Below are positions 4,686-11,815 of a stretch of 34,978 nucleotides of DNA, one piece after another. A program made the position numbers and the translations under genes. The notes under the pieces are model-generated. The model did not search any database, was not told the origin of the DNA, and worked only from the letters and a program-made list of their open reading frames with translations. The stretch spans positions 1 through 34,978 of the forward strand of contig CAJJCU010000129.1 of NCBI GenBank assembly GCA_905182775.1, written 5' to 3'. The stretch's first letter is position 1. Each line of letters starts with the position of its first letter. The DNA comes from an uncultured Flavobacteriales bacterium (GTDB taxonomy: Bacteria; Bacteroidota; Bacteroidia; Flavobacteriales_D; Crocinitomicaceae).

Positions 4686-6320
4686 TTAACGCTTCAGAAT
4701 TGCCTCGATTGGTTTACCGGTCATTTGCCCCGTTTTTGGTAAACTTAATATTTCGCGTAGCGTAGGAGCAATATCCGTAATGTTCAGGGGAGCAATTATT
4801 TCTTGACTTTTTATACCGGCGCCATACCAGATGCAGGGCACATGCGTATCGTAATTATATCCTGAGCCATGTGAGGTTCCTTGGGCGTGGTGAGCATCGA
4901 TACTAGACTTTGGTAAATATCCCGATTCTAATACAATGAGAAGGTCTCCACTTCTATTTGGGTCAAACCCATTAGCGAGTAGTCGGTCCCATTTGTCATC
5001 ATTCTTGTTTTGCGATCGAAGCGACACGCCTCTTCTAGTGGTCTTAATTCCTTTAACCTTTGAAAGTTCCTCTTCTAGTTGTGTTAGTAATAAGTTTTTC
5101 GAAACTTTGGGTAGGATAGAGTCTAAAACCTCCTGGTTTAAATAGATGTTTAAATTATTTTGACCTAAAATAAAATCCACACCAAATAAAGTGATGCTTC
5201 TATTTCGGAGATCTGAAATCACTCTATCTATAAAGACATATCCTCCACTCAAGCCTTCATCTACTCTTTTTTGAGGAACCGTCGCAACTCCATGATCGGC
5301 AGTTAGAAATAAAACAAATTCATCTTTGCCAAATGATTTTTCTAAGTGGTTTAAAAGCCGAGACAATTCAAGATCTAACCTGTAATACATGTCCTCAATC
5401 TCTTTGGAATCCGGACCGAAAAGATGCCCCGCAATGTCTGTAGAAGAATAGCTTATGCAAAGCATGTCAGTGAATTCGCCTTTACCGAGATTTTCTTTTT
5501 TCAGGGCTTCAATTGCTAAATCGGTTAATAAGTTATTTGCAAAAGGGGACATTGTAAATGGTTCATAGGATTGATTTAGGCTACATAAGTTTTTTATGTC
5601 ATATGGAAAAACGGCAGTTCCTTGGCCATTGATGACTTTTTCATAGGGGCTAGAATCTATAGCACGATAGCTTTCTTTTGCAAGAAGAGGTTTCCAAACT
5701 TGAGCATAACTCAAAGCATTGTTTTTGGCATTGAATTTTTTCACCCATTTAGGCATCTGACTTAGGTAGTAACTGCTGGTGATAAACTGCCCTTTTCCAT
5801 AATCAAACCAATAGCTTCCGTCACTTTTGAAGCCTCCTGGTAATATTGCGCCACGGTCTTTAATAGAGATAGAGATTACTTTAGATTTTGGGTGCTCATT
5901 TTTTAATTGGTCCGTTATTGTTGATGTATTTAGTCTATGTGGTGATGATTTGCCATAAAGAATGCTGCTTTCAATCCCTATAACGGATGGATCTCCAACA
6001 CAGTTGACGATGCTTTTGGAGGATTCCTCTATCCAGCTATTTGCAATAATGCCATGGACATTAGGTGTTGCACCTGTATAAATCGATGCATGACCTGGCC
6101 CTGTATATGTGGGTATATAGTTGTAGTGCATGTTTTTTAAATGACTTCCTTTTCTCATTAATTTCTTAAAACCATTTTCTGAAAAATTATTTTGAAATCG
6201 ATAGAGGTAATCATAGCACATTTGATCGATGACAATTCCTACGATGATTTTAGGTGTATTCTTTTGACTGCTTAAAGAGAATGAGAGAAGTAAAAGTGTA
6301 AAAAAGGAAAGTTTTTTCAT
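4686..6320 (-). CDS. PafA-like alkaline phosphatase superfamily protein (secreted phosphate monoesterase type)
   Basis: Signal peptide. IVGIVIDQMCYDYLYRF, nucleophile region TYTGPGHASIYTG, NSW and KDRGAILPGG motifs, LTADHGV, HGSGYNYDTHVP. Confidence 0.85.
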   Translation of the reverse strand: MKKLSFFTLLLLSFSLSSQKNTPKIIVGIVIDQMCYDYLYRFQNNFSENGFKKLMRKGSHLKNMHYNYIPTYTGPGHASIYTGATPNVHGIIANSWIEESSKSIVNCVGDPSVIGIESSILYGKSSPHRLNTSTITDQLKNEHPKSKVISISIKDRGAILPGGFKSDGSYWFDYGKGQFITSSYYLSQMPKWVKKFNAKNNALSYAQVWKPLLAKESYRAIDSSPYEKVINGQGTAVFPYDIKNLCSLNQSYEPFTMSPFANNLLTDLAIEALKKENLGKGEFTDMLCISYSSTDIAGHLFGPDSKEIEDMYYRLDLELSRLLNHLEKSFGKDEFVLFLTADHGVATVPQKRVDEGLSGGYVFIDRVISDLRNRSITLFGVDFILGQNNLNIYLNQEVLDSILPKVSKNLLLTQLEEELSKVKGIKTTRRGVSLRSQNKNDDKWDRLLANGFDPNRSGDLLIVLESGYLPKSSIDAHHAQGTSHGSGYNYDTHVPCIWYGAGIKSQEIIAPLNITDIAPTLREILSLPKTGQMTGKPIEAILKR

Positions 6321-6369
6321 GAACTAAAAGTAGTAAATATCTATGCTTTTTAATATTTTATTTTTTCAA

Positions 6370-6396
6370 TGCAACTTTTATAAAATATGGTGCGTC
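6370..6396 (+). promoter_or_regulatory. ECF-sigma-like promoter, unit 1 (TGCAAC-N17-CGTC)
   Basis: TGCAACTTTTATAAAATATGGTGCGTC. Confidence 0.65.
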
Positions 6397-6402
6397 TGAA
6401 TA

Positions 6403-6462
6403 TGGAAACTTAAAACATTTTTACTCTTATCATTGAAAACACCGCAAACGAGCGGTGTTTTT
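6403..6462 (+). ncRNA. predicted tandem sRNA, unit 1 (~60 nt)
   Basis: Body shares GAAACTTAAAACATTTTTACTCTTATC with unit 2. Terminator AAACACCGC-aaacga-GCGGTGTTTTT at 6437-6462. 5' end inferred. Confidence 0.65.
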
Positions 6463-6565
6463 GGTTTTATATGCATTCGGATACTTTACCCCTGCTTGTT
6501 GCTTTTCGATTTATGTTTTTTATTCCTTGGTTAGGGTTTTAATTCTTTAAAAAACATTTAGCTGA

Positions 6566-6592
6566 TGCAACTTTTAGAAATAGTTATACGTC
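6566..6592 (+). promoter_or_regulatory. ECF-sigma-like promoter, unit 2 (TGCAAC-N17-CGTC)
   Basis: TGCAACTTTTAGAAATAGTTATACGTC. Confidence 0.65.
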
Positions 6593-6598
6593 TATAAA

Positions 6599-6661
6599 AT
6601 GACTACGAAAACTTAAACATTTTTACTCTTATCGAAAGCACTGCCTCGGCAGTGCTTTTTT
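6599..6661 (+). ncRNA. predicted tandem sRNA, unit 2 (~63 nt)
   Basis: GAAAACTTAAACATTTTTACTCTTATC body. Terminator AAAGCACTGCC-tc-GGCAGTGCTTTTTT at 6635-6661. Confidence 0.65.
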
Positions 6662-6703
6662 CTTTTCAGTTATTCTGGCTCAGGTCTAATTTAATATCAC
6701 TTA

Positions 6704-6730
6704 TGCAACTTTTTGATATAGTATTACGTC
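6704..6730 (+). promoter_or_regulatory. ECF-sigma-like promoter, unit 3 (TGCAAC-N17-CGTC)
   Basis: TGCAACTTTTTGATATAGTATTACGTC. Confidence 0.65.
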
Positions 6731-6736
6731 AATATA

Positions 6737-6795
6737 ATGCTAATACTATAACTCAATAGAAAATTAAACACTGCTTTCGAGGAGTGTTTTTTTTT
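6737..6795 (+). ncRNA. predicted tandem sRNA, unit 3 (~59 nt)
   Basis: ATAACTCAAT motif shared with units 4/5. Terminator AAACACT-g-CT-TTCG-AG-g-AGTGTTTTTTTTT at 6766-6795. Confidence 0.62.
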
Positions 6796-6914
6796 GCTTC
6801 TGATTTTTCTTTAGTAGCGCATTAAGTCTCATCTTTTTCTAGTGCTATAATTGACGAATGATGATTACTTTAAAAAGAAAATAGTTCAGTTTTTTTAGAA
6901 TGTTTTTTGCCTGA

Positions 6915-6941
6915 TGCAACTTTATGAAATGCTGTTACGTC
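6915..6941 (+). promoter_or_regulatory. ECF-sigma-like promoter, unit 4 (TGCAAC-N17-CGTC)
   Basis: TGCAACTTTATGAAATGCTGTTACGTC. Confidence 0.68.
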
Positions 6942-6947
6942 ATACTA

Positions 6948-7005
6948 ACACTAAGACTTTTAACTCAATCACTCAGAACACTGCTTTTTAAGCAGTGTTT
7001 TTTTT
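6948..7005 (+). ncRNA. predicted tandem sRNA, unit 4 (~58 nt)
   Basis: CGTCATACTAACACTAAGACTTTTAACTCAATCACTCA shared exactly with unit 5. Terminator AACACTGCTT-ttt-AAGCAGTGTTTTTTTT. Confidence 0.7.
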
Positions 7006-7078
7006 GTTTTAATAAGGGGGTTCTCATCATTGCTTTATGATGGACTTCGATTTTTTTTCTGAGTTTTTAAATAGGGGA

Positions 7079-7105
7079 TGCAACTTTATAGAATAACGAT
7101 ACGTC
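7079..7105 (+). promoter_or_regulatory. ECF-sigma-like promoter, unit 5 (TGCAAC-N17-CGTC)
   Basis: TGCAACTTTATAGAATAACGATACGTC. Confidence 0.68.
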
Positions 7106-7111
7106 ATACTA

Positions 7112-7168
7112 ACACTAAGACTTTTAACTCAATCACTCAAAACACTGCTTTTAAGCAGTGTTTTTTTT
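7112..7168 (+). ncRNA. predicted tandem sRNA, unit 5 (~57 nt)
   Basis: Nearly identical to unit 4 from CGTC to the terminator. AAAACACTGCTTTTAAGCAGTGTTTTTTTT at 7139-7168. Confidence 0.7.
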
Positions 7169-7178
7169 ATGACAATAA

Positions 7179-7844
7179 TTACTGTATTAATTTGTATCCG
7201 ACTCCTTTTACGGTGGCAATACATTCTTCTCCCAGTTTACGTCTAAGTTTCCTTATATGAACATCAATGGTTCTATCACCCACAACAATCTCGGTCCCCC
7301 AAACTGTAGTTAGAATTTCATTCCTTCTAAAAACATGATTTGGTTTCGATGCTAAAAGTGAGATGAGCTCAAACTCTTTTTTTGGCAATAAAATCTCATC
7401 ACCATTTTTATACACAATATACTTATCGAAGTCAATATGAATAATATCCTGCTGGAGGGATGGTGAATGAGTTGTTCTTCTCAATAGAGCGTTGATCCTA
7501 CTCAGAAGAACTTTAGGTTTGATAGGTTTAGTTACATAGTCATCTCCGCCCGCCTCTAGTGCTGCAATTTGGCTATAATCCTCTCCGCGTGCAGTTAAAA
7601 AGCAAATGAGTATTTGCGCATTTGAAGGTTCCGATTTTATTTGCTCACAAACCTCCAATCCATCCATCTCTGGCATCATAACATCCATTAATATTAAATG
7701 GGGCTTATTTTCTTTTATTTTCTCCAGGCATTCAATCCCATTACTAGCGTTGTCAACATCATATCCTGCTTTTTCGATATTATAAGTCAAAAGGCTTCGG
7801 ATGTCTTCATCGTCGTCAACTATCAAGATTGATTTTTTACTCAT
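7179..7844 (-). CDS. PhoB/OmpR-family response regulator
   Basis: REC domain (ILIVDDDEDIRSLL, LMDVMMPEMDG, FLTARGED, GGDDYVTKP) plus winged-helix DNA-binding domain (VGDRTIDVHIRKLRRKLG...VKGVGYKL). Confidence 0.92.
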   Translation of the reverse strand: MSKKSILIVDDDEDIRSLLTYNIEKAGYDVDNASNGIECLEKIKENKPHLILMDVMMPEMDGLEVCEQIKSEPSNAQILICFLTARGEDYSQIAALEAGGDDYVTKPIKPKVLLSRINALLRRTTHSPSLQQDIIHIDFDKYIVYKNGDEILLPKKEFELISLLASKPNHVFRRNEILTTVWGTEIVVGDRTIDVHIRKLRRKLGEECIATVKGVGYKLIQ

Positions 7845-9931: not shown

Positions 9932-10246
9932 ATGGCTAAAATATCGTTGAAAGTAAATATAGCAGGAAGAACCTATCCCTTGACCGTTGAAGAGAACGAG
10001 CAAGAAAGTGTTTCGGCTGCAGTAGATACCATAAATAATGCCCTTGATAGCTTGAAAAAGAATTATGCGGTGAAGGATCCTCAAGATTTAATAGCAATGA
10101 CGGCACTTCAACTGATCATGAAACAAGAAGCGCATCAAAAATCTTCAGACACTTCAGAAGAGGAAGCATCGAATAACCTAGGTCAAATTGACAAAGCGCT
10201 TGAGCAGCTATGCCAGCAGATCGATGAAGCCAATCAGATCTCTTAG
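9932..10246 (+). CDS. zapA: cell division protein ZapA
   Basis: KVNIAGRTYPLTVEENEQESVSAAVDTINNAL...DPQDLIAMTALQLI. Confidence 0.88.
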   Translation: MAKISLKVNIAGRTYPLTVEENEQESVSAAVDTINNALDSLKKNYAVKDPQDLIAMTALQLIMKQEAHQKSSDTSEEEASNNLGQIDKALEQLCQQIDEANQIS

Positions 10247-10285
10247 TAACCCGGTAACACGATTATTAATTTTAATTGTGTAAGT

Positions 10286-11815
10286 ATGGAAATTGTATAT
10301 ATTGTAGTAGGGCTTATAGCTGGAATTGCTCTCGGACTGATTGGTCAGCGTATGATGCTCAAAGGAAAGGCTGATAACCTCATTAGAGAAGCCGAAACTA
10401 AAGCTGAATCCATTAAGAAGGACAAAATGTTTCAGGCCAAAGAGCGCTTCTTATCCCTCAAGCAAGAGCACGAAACCAAAATCAAAGACAGAGAACGCCG
10501 TATTCAATCTACAGAAGATCGAGCTAAGGCAAAAGAAAATAAACTAGAGCAACAGATTTCTTCATTTGGTCGAAAAGAAAAAGAAATTGAAAAAACAAAA
10601 TCCGATTTTGATGCCAAGTTTCGAGGGATCGAATTGCGTATTAAAGAACTAGATAAAACCCAAGAAAAAAGGGTGAGTGAATTGTCAAAAATTAGCGGTC
10701 TTTCCGCTGAAGATGCAAAAAATGCGCTAATGGAGGCTTTAAAAGATGAAGCCAAAACTGCCGCGATGATTCATATCAAAGAAATTACAGAGGAAGCCAA
10801 GTTAAATGCCAATAAGGAAGCGCGAAAGATTGTGATTCAGTCGATACAGCGGGTTGCTACAGAGCAAGCTATTGAGAATGCGGTGTCTGTATTTAATATT
10901 GATTCTGATGAGGTTAAAGGTCGAATTATTGGTCGAGAAGGACGAAATATTAGAGCGTTAGAGTCTGCTACGGGTGTGGAAATCATTGTTGATGATACTC
11001 CAGAGGCAATTATGCTGTCATGTTTCGATCCTGTAAGAAGAGAGATTGCAAGATTGTCGCTGCATCAGTTGGTCACCGATGGTCGAATTCACCCTGCGCG
11101 TGTTGAGGAAATTGTTGCAAAAACAAGAAAGCAGCTTGATGAGGAAATTGCTGAGACAGGAAAAAGAACTTGTATCGATTTAGGCATTCATGGGTTACAC
11201 CCGGAGCTTGTCAAAATGGTCGGTCGCATGAAATACCGTTCCTCTTATGGTCAAAACTTACTACAGCATTCACGTGAGGTTGCAAACTTATGTGCAACTA
11301 TGGCATCTGAACTAGGGATCAACCCTAAGATAGCAAAACGTGCCGGTCTCCTTCATGATATTGGTAAGGTACCTGAGGACGAGCCCGAATTGCCTCACGC
11401 AATCCTAGGAATGAAGATTGCTGAAAAATATGGTGAGAAGCCAGATGTACTAAATGCAATTGGAGCCCACCATGATGAAATCGAAATGACAACTCTGATA
11501 TCTCCGCTCGTTCAAGTTTGTGATGCTGTGTCAGGAGCAAGACCAGGAGCGAGAAGAGAGATTGTAGAGGCCTACGTTAAGCGTATTAAAGATTTAGAGT
11601 CACTTGCTTTGGCTTTTGATGGAGTTGCTAGTGCTTATGCTATTCAAGCGGGAAGAGAGCTAAGGGTGATGGTCGAGGCGGATCGCGTTTCTGATGCAAA
11701 ATCTGAAGAGCTTTCATTTCAAATATCTGAAAAGATCCAAACTGAAATGACGTATCCAGGTCAAGTTCGGATTACCGTAATTAGAGAGAAAAGAGCAGTG
11801 AATTACGCCAAGTAA
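10286..11815 (+). CDS. rny: ribonuclease Y
   Basis: N-terminal TM, coiled coil, KH motif ([28 protein letters not shown]), HD domain (LLHDIGK...IGAHHDE). Confidence 0.96.

Follow-up and report, generated by a model that had tools for sequence, protein, structure and literature searches.

The sigma-E-dependent envelope sRNAs of Escherichia coli, MicA and RybB, are encoded by separate single genes, and the enterobacterial representatives use Hfq. FoxJ of Fusobacterium is described as a further sigma-E-type envelope sRNA (PMC11005410). A multicopy arrangement is found in Listeria, where LhrC1-5 are five sibling sRNAs of 111-114 nt with their own promoters, which carry UCCC motifs, are controlled by the envelope-stress regulator LisR and do not need Hfq for their action on their target (PMC4132741). 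Among the Flavobacteriales, Rfp11 is an sRNA listed for Flavobacterium psychrophilum; the SM6 promoter that precedes it is ECF-type, has CGT as its -10 box and belongs to a class said in the same account to cover also a sigma/anti-sigma pair of ECF type and genes of the T9SS (PMC9723704).

Knowledge of regulatory RNAs in Bacteroidota is sparse outside Bacteroides and a few members of Flavobacterium, and the majority lack an identified regulator. At the locus described here, sequence reveals at once an sRNA family, the promoter that it uses and the stress-type sigma factor that probably serves it. It lies in a contig of an uncultured marine Flavobacteriales bacterium (Crocinitomicaceae; CAJJCU010000129.1), positions 1 to 34,978 of which form the window analysed. 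The array it contains most probably represents an undescribed family of sibling sRNAs, strongly indicated to be such and transcribed by an ECF sigma factor; kept at the same place in close relatives, it is a convincing candidate for a new regulatory RNA family.

Cassettes, promoters and terminators

The array spans positions 6370-7168 of the window, within a gap of 858 nt (6321-7178) bounded by two genes on the - strand, and consists of five + strand cassettes starting at 6370, 6566, 6704, 6915 and 7079. The features are as follows.

4686-6320, - strand: gene for a pafA-like alkaline phosphatase/phosphodiesterase, flanking the array on the left and divergent from unit 1; syntenic in carriers where flank sequence is present
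6370-6396, + strand: ECF-type promoter of unit 1, TGCAACTTT being the -35 and CGTC the -10; element and spacing as upstream of an ECF sigma gene
6403-6465, + strand: predicted sRNA of unit 1, class A; body GAAACTTAAAACATTTTTACTCTTATC (27 nt), terminator ACACCGC/GCGGTGT
6566-6592, + strand: ECF-type promoter of unit 2, by element and spacing
6599-6661, + strand: predicted sRNA of unit 2, class A; terminator GCACTGCC/GGCAGTGC
6704-6730, + strand: ECF-type promoter of unit 3, by element and spacing
6737-6795, + strand: predicted sRNA of unit 3, a divergent member of class B; terminator weaker, a single position being mismatched
6915-6941, + strand: ECF-type promoter of unit 4, by element and spacing
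6948-7005, + strand: predicted sRNA of unit 4, class B; terminator ACACTGCTT/AAGCAGTGT
7079-7105, + strand: ECF-type promoter of unit 5, by element and spacing
7112-7168, + strand: predicted sRNA of unit 5, class B; terminator ACACTGCTT/AAGCAGTGT
7179-7844, - strand: gene for a PhoB-like response regulator of the OmpR family, flanking the array on the right and convergent with unit 5

The predicted transcripts, with 5' ends placed ~6-7 nt after CGTC, are 55-63 nt long and fall into two seed classes, units 1-2 having ACTTAAA(A)CATTTTTACTCTTATC and units 3-5 CTAA-ACT-T-ACTCAAT; unit 5 equals unit 4 over the first ~30 nt after CGTC. The string TGCAACTTT-N14-CGTC is present in 5/5 units with identical spacing, on the + strand only. 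These five occurrences compare with ~1e-5 expected in the gap from base composition, and there are none outside the gap in the 1,950,751-base assembly, for the whole of which the same calculation expects 0.05. The housekeeping Bacteroidota -7 box (TAnnTTTG) was searched for in the units and none was found; housekeeping promoters were rejected, the number of sigma-70-like matches equalling the shuffle mean.

Every cassette ends in a GC hairpin and a T tract. A terminator scan of the gap found four terminator-like sites, against 0.2 +/- 0.4 in shuffles, and the fifth terminator, that of unit 3, is interrupted by one internal mismatch and has a weaker fold. The stems of units 3-5 covary, with 97.8% of cells paired and 18 cells changed on both sides, giving a score of 0.357, where shuffles gave 0.221 (0/500) and slid partners 0.05-0.20 (maximum 0.204). 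The units thus possess the hairpin, T tract and compensatory changes of independent, intrinsically terminated transcripts. When folded, four of them have an unstructured 5' part and a single 3' hairpin, while unit 3 shows a weak additional helix (z of the five units -2.0 to -5.4).

Much of this had been anticipated by the preliminary description, made from the window alone. All five tandem + strand units are found where it had placed them, between genes that do lie on the - strand; the own promoter and terminator it gave each unit correspond to five promoters, four scanned terminators and the weaker one of unit 3, and the terminator arms change yet pair as it had reported. Its fixed gap between boxes is exact in every unit, with the refinement that the boxes belong to an ECF-type promoter.

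Within 7139-7178, the hairpin of unit 5 lies ~11 nt past the stop codon of the response-regulator gene that converges on it, with A and T runs alongside, and for this reason may be a two-way terminator. Genes for ZapA and RNase Y are located a few kb from the array, at 9932-11815, RNase Y being a candidate for the turnover of the array RNAs.

The probable sigma factor and the distribution of the array

Elsewhere in the genus, in a different clade, this promoter string directly precedes an ECF sigma gene, a relative of which was found in 60 of the 61 genus genomes searched. TGCAAC-N18-GTC, with an invariant 27-nt span, precedes this gene in 20/20 genomes whose upstream DNA was read (~0.0015 expected in shuffles), beginning 40-42 nt before the start codon, also in genomes without the array; in the window's own genome it reads TGCAACTTTTAAGTATTAATTGTAGTC (G000:C36). 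Among the regions upstream of ECF paralogues, 12 are without it and several bear a different element, GGCAAC...CGTTTA. Upstream of a second ECF sigma gene (regions L254-L258) a separate element, GGCAACG...ACGTTTAA, is conserved, which suggests a parallel autoregulated system of related specificity.

The sigma gene is followed by one whose product has a single apparent transmembrane stretch and, at its C-terminus, a CHU_C/T9SS type-B domain; this product is likely to be an anti-sigma factor. Array genomes have further sites of the promoter type before genes for large secreted, T9SS-type surface proteins, one of which bears a T9SS type-B sorting domain. As expected of ECF-dependent sRNAs, the units and the ECF sigma operon have this promoter in common. 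Judged from sequence, the conserved boxes of the units are an ECF-type promoter; given the sites before the ECF sigma and T9SS-type genes and the absence of a -7 box, the units are read as ECF-sigma transcription units whose RNAs would start ~7 nt after CGTC. In most genomes AGTC takes the place of the units' CGTC in the promoter of the sigma gene itself, and the paralogue element is similar; we therefore infer the pairing of the array promoters with this particular sigma factor with less than certainty. It is nevertheless quite probable that an autoregulated ECF sigma factor, with a putative membrane-bound anti-sigma factor, has as one of its outputs the five sibling sRNA genes with their own promoters and terminators.

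A promoter pattern and a covariance model (R1) were used to search 86 genus genomes for the array. Orthologous arrays of 5-6 units are present in nine (G000, that of the window, G017, G019, G026, G027, G033, G082, G084 and G099), a partial match in G019:C17 being a unit truncated by the contig end, and a divergent array occupies the same locus in three more (G031, G075 and G089). Carriers thus total 12/86 congeners, yet the sigma gene is found in nearly all, a disparity that weighs against the explanation favoured here; several carriers appear in public records as MAGs of uncultured marine Flavobacteriales or Crocinitomicaceae. Where flank sequence is present, carriers constantly have pafA on one side and the response regulator on the other, whereas in the non-carrier congeners examined the region upstream of pafA has neither array nor response regulator. 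Identity to the window's PafA is 56-85% in carriers and at most 53% in non-carriers (full-length matches); that carriers' PafA are the nearest to it suggests, without proving, a single origin of the array.

The units are orthologous by position across species, and the 27-nt body of unit 1 is identical in 8/8 species compared. In five pairwise comparisons between species, bodies are 78-94% identical and inter-unit DNA 30-66%, by which selection is shown to act on the predicted RNA bodies of the array. This bears out the earlier view that the conserved parts are the transcription units. Unconserved drift, which the preliminary description had named as the outcome that would undo its reading, fails as an explanation because orthologous arrays lie at the same locus, bodies are more conserved than spacers and terminators covary. 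The covariance-model search that it proposed recovered arrays in congeners, with no convincing homologue among 379 order-level genomes outside the genus (model R1). Single weak matches to the model in other genomes were, on inspection, mRNA terminators or unrelated promoters.

The near-identity of neighbouring units, namely units 4/5 in the window and four copies in L061, points to continuing tandem duplication. In the divergent array (L061 4366-4917, L176, L177, L178), near-identical copies come after a distinct first unit, GGGCTCAGTAATA...GAACCCTTATC, which points to concerted expansion. Congeners lacking the array (L034, L037, L038, L042, L045, L049) have the promoter string dispersed before other genes, including those for small secreted proteins, a thioredoxin-like protein and a DOPA-dioxygenase-like protein, which suggests a rewiring of the sigma regulon.

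Proposed action and alternative readings

The genes of the sigma factor and the putative anti-sigma factor lie together elsewhere in the genome, away from the array. Under the proposed mechanism, an envelope or secretion signal would act on the anti-sigma factor, with its one TM helix and T9SS type-B/CHU_C-like outer domain, so as to free the sigma factor, and RNA polymerase would then initiate at all five TGCAAC-N17-CGTC promoters simultaneously. The output would be a burst of 55-63 nt RNAs, each comprising ~30 nt of unstructured A/U/C-rich sequence and then the terminator hairpin. Their single-stranded parts would serve as antisense seeds on mRNAs, the effect most likely being repression of envelope, surface or secreted-protein mRNAs, and the two seed classes would have partly different target sets. 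A search that, as a control, recovers Hfq in E. coli and B. subtilis detected no gene for it in 12 genomes; pairing would consequently be Hfq-free or use another chaperone, and the array RNAs most likely act as short antisense RNAs without Hfq. More tentatively, and with rather less than even confidence, the main output of the sigma factor may be a dedicated Hfq-free battery of 5-6 minimal sRNAs of two seed classes, forming an off-switch for the surface/T9SS programme. If so, an ECF/anti-sigma pair with a T9SS-like sensor domain has been repurposed in an uncultured marine Flavobacteriales lineage, with the off-switch amplified by dosage.

Outside the array, long complements of both seeds occur at the rate of reversed-pattern controls, a comparison in which short seeds are not resolvable, and GAGTWAAAA near ATGAA shows no excess over such controls. 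An orthologous TPR/PD40 envelope-type gene pair (L321, L332) has complementarity adjoining the start codon at background frequency, and is a lead only. The sole strong match among eight local or regulon 5' regions, a duplex of units 4/5 with a surface-protein gene, was rejected because most of it falls in the promoter of the surface-protein gene, before the inferred start. Complementarity to mRNAs not above chance in the searches run would also suit RNAs that titrate an RNA-binding protein or another RNA and pair with no mRNA, as would multiple near-identical copies with a short single-stranded common core, ACTC(A/T)(A/T)AT. Such a sponge is improbable, however, as a protein-binding motif would usually be shorter than the conserved stretches of 22-27 nt and the individual RNAs contain no repeated motif.

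The sRNAs might alternatively be real but the boxes be binding sites of the adjacent PhoB-like response regulator, in the manner of LhrC and LisR, instead of an ECF promoter. The regulator gene adjoins every array whose flank sequence is present, and LhrC1-5 requires LisR (PMC4132741). Against this, the element sits where a core promoter would and its span of 27 nt does not vary; it is followed by no housekeeping -7 box, and it lies 40-42 nt before one ECF gene in all 20 genomes read, array-less ones included. Sites of OmpR-family regulators are usually direct repeats, which the array boxes are not. We regard binding by this regulator as distinctly unlikely and retain the ECF promoter.

Very little probability attaches to the units encoding very small peptides from ECF promoters, such as the signal-peptide-like MKLKTFLLLS... 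of unit 1. The frame of unit 1 is open through the terminator in several species, but its start codon varies between them (ATG, TTG, ACG or absent), for which reason peptides were rejected; its body is invariant at third positions too, units 2, 4 and 5 are without an ORF of at least eight codons in nearly every species, and no ORF is conserved. Read as codons, the unit 1 body (L060 5239-5334 and orthologues) gives the signal-peptide-like KLKTFLLLS, and may have descended from a gene start. A non-functional repeat array or mobile-element debris, to which tandem copies and ongoing duplication (units 4/5; the four near-identical units of L061) might point, is already contradicted by comparative data, since the cassette parts, unlike the diverging spacers, are conserved between species, the terminators covary and the locus is fixed, and merits virtually no credence.

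Comparison with known systems

Searches of Rfam at gathering and permissive thresholds gave no relevant match, LhrC not being among the matches to E=5, in keeping with the initial impression of an undescribed family. The likeness to LhrC1-5 first drawn from the layout holds for that layout: several siblings, five in both systems, each have a promoter and a terminator, and an envelope-stress regulator and Hfq-independence, here inferred, would be further points in common (PMC4132741). It does not extend to homology, to the UCCC motif (TCCC occurs in 0/48 units) or to LisR, in whose place an ECF sigma factor is implied, and the array RNAs are 55-63 nt long as against 111-114 nt. By sequence, UCCC motifs and apparent regulator type, the array is outside the LhrC family.

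The closest described precedent is Rfp11, compared here by its description: also in Flavobacteriales, it is an sRNA with a CGT box at -10 whose motif class precedes an ECF pair and T9SS genes. Unlike the array, it is listed as a single RNA, with no five-copy array in the description used here (PMC9723704). The use of an ECF sigma factor to drive short sRNAs as a post-transcriptional arm is analogous to MicA, RybB and, as described, FoxJ (PMC11005410), from which the five tandem copies, two seed classes and want of a detected Hfq set the array apart, the contrast in Hfq being with the enterobacterial MicA and RybB. In its apparent mode of working the array resembles the LhrC and sigma-E sRNAs, but it belongs to neither family. 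A search of open-licence papers found no ECF-driven sRNA array described in Bacteroidota. The locus offers a testable model of sigma-dependent RNA regulation in bacteria in which no Hfq was found, one that bears on why sRNA genes multiply and on the link between ECF control and the type IX secretion surface. What is new is the combination of tandem sibling sRNAs, an ECF promoter on each copy and a background in which Hfq was not found, its individual parts being of known kinds.
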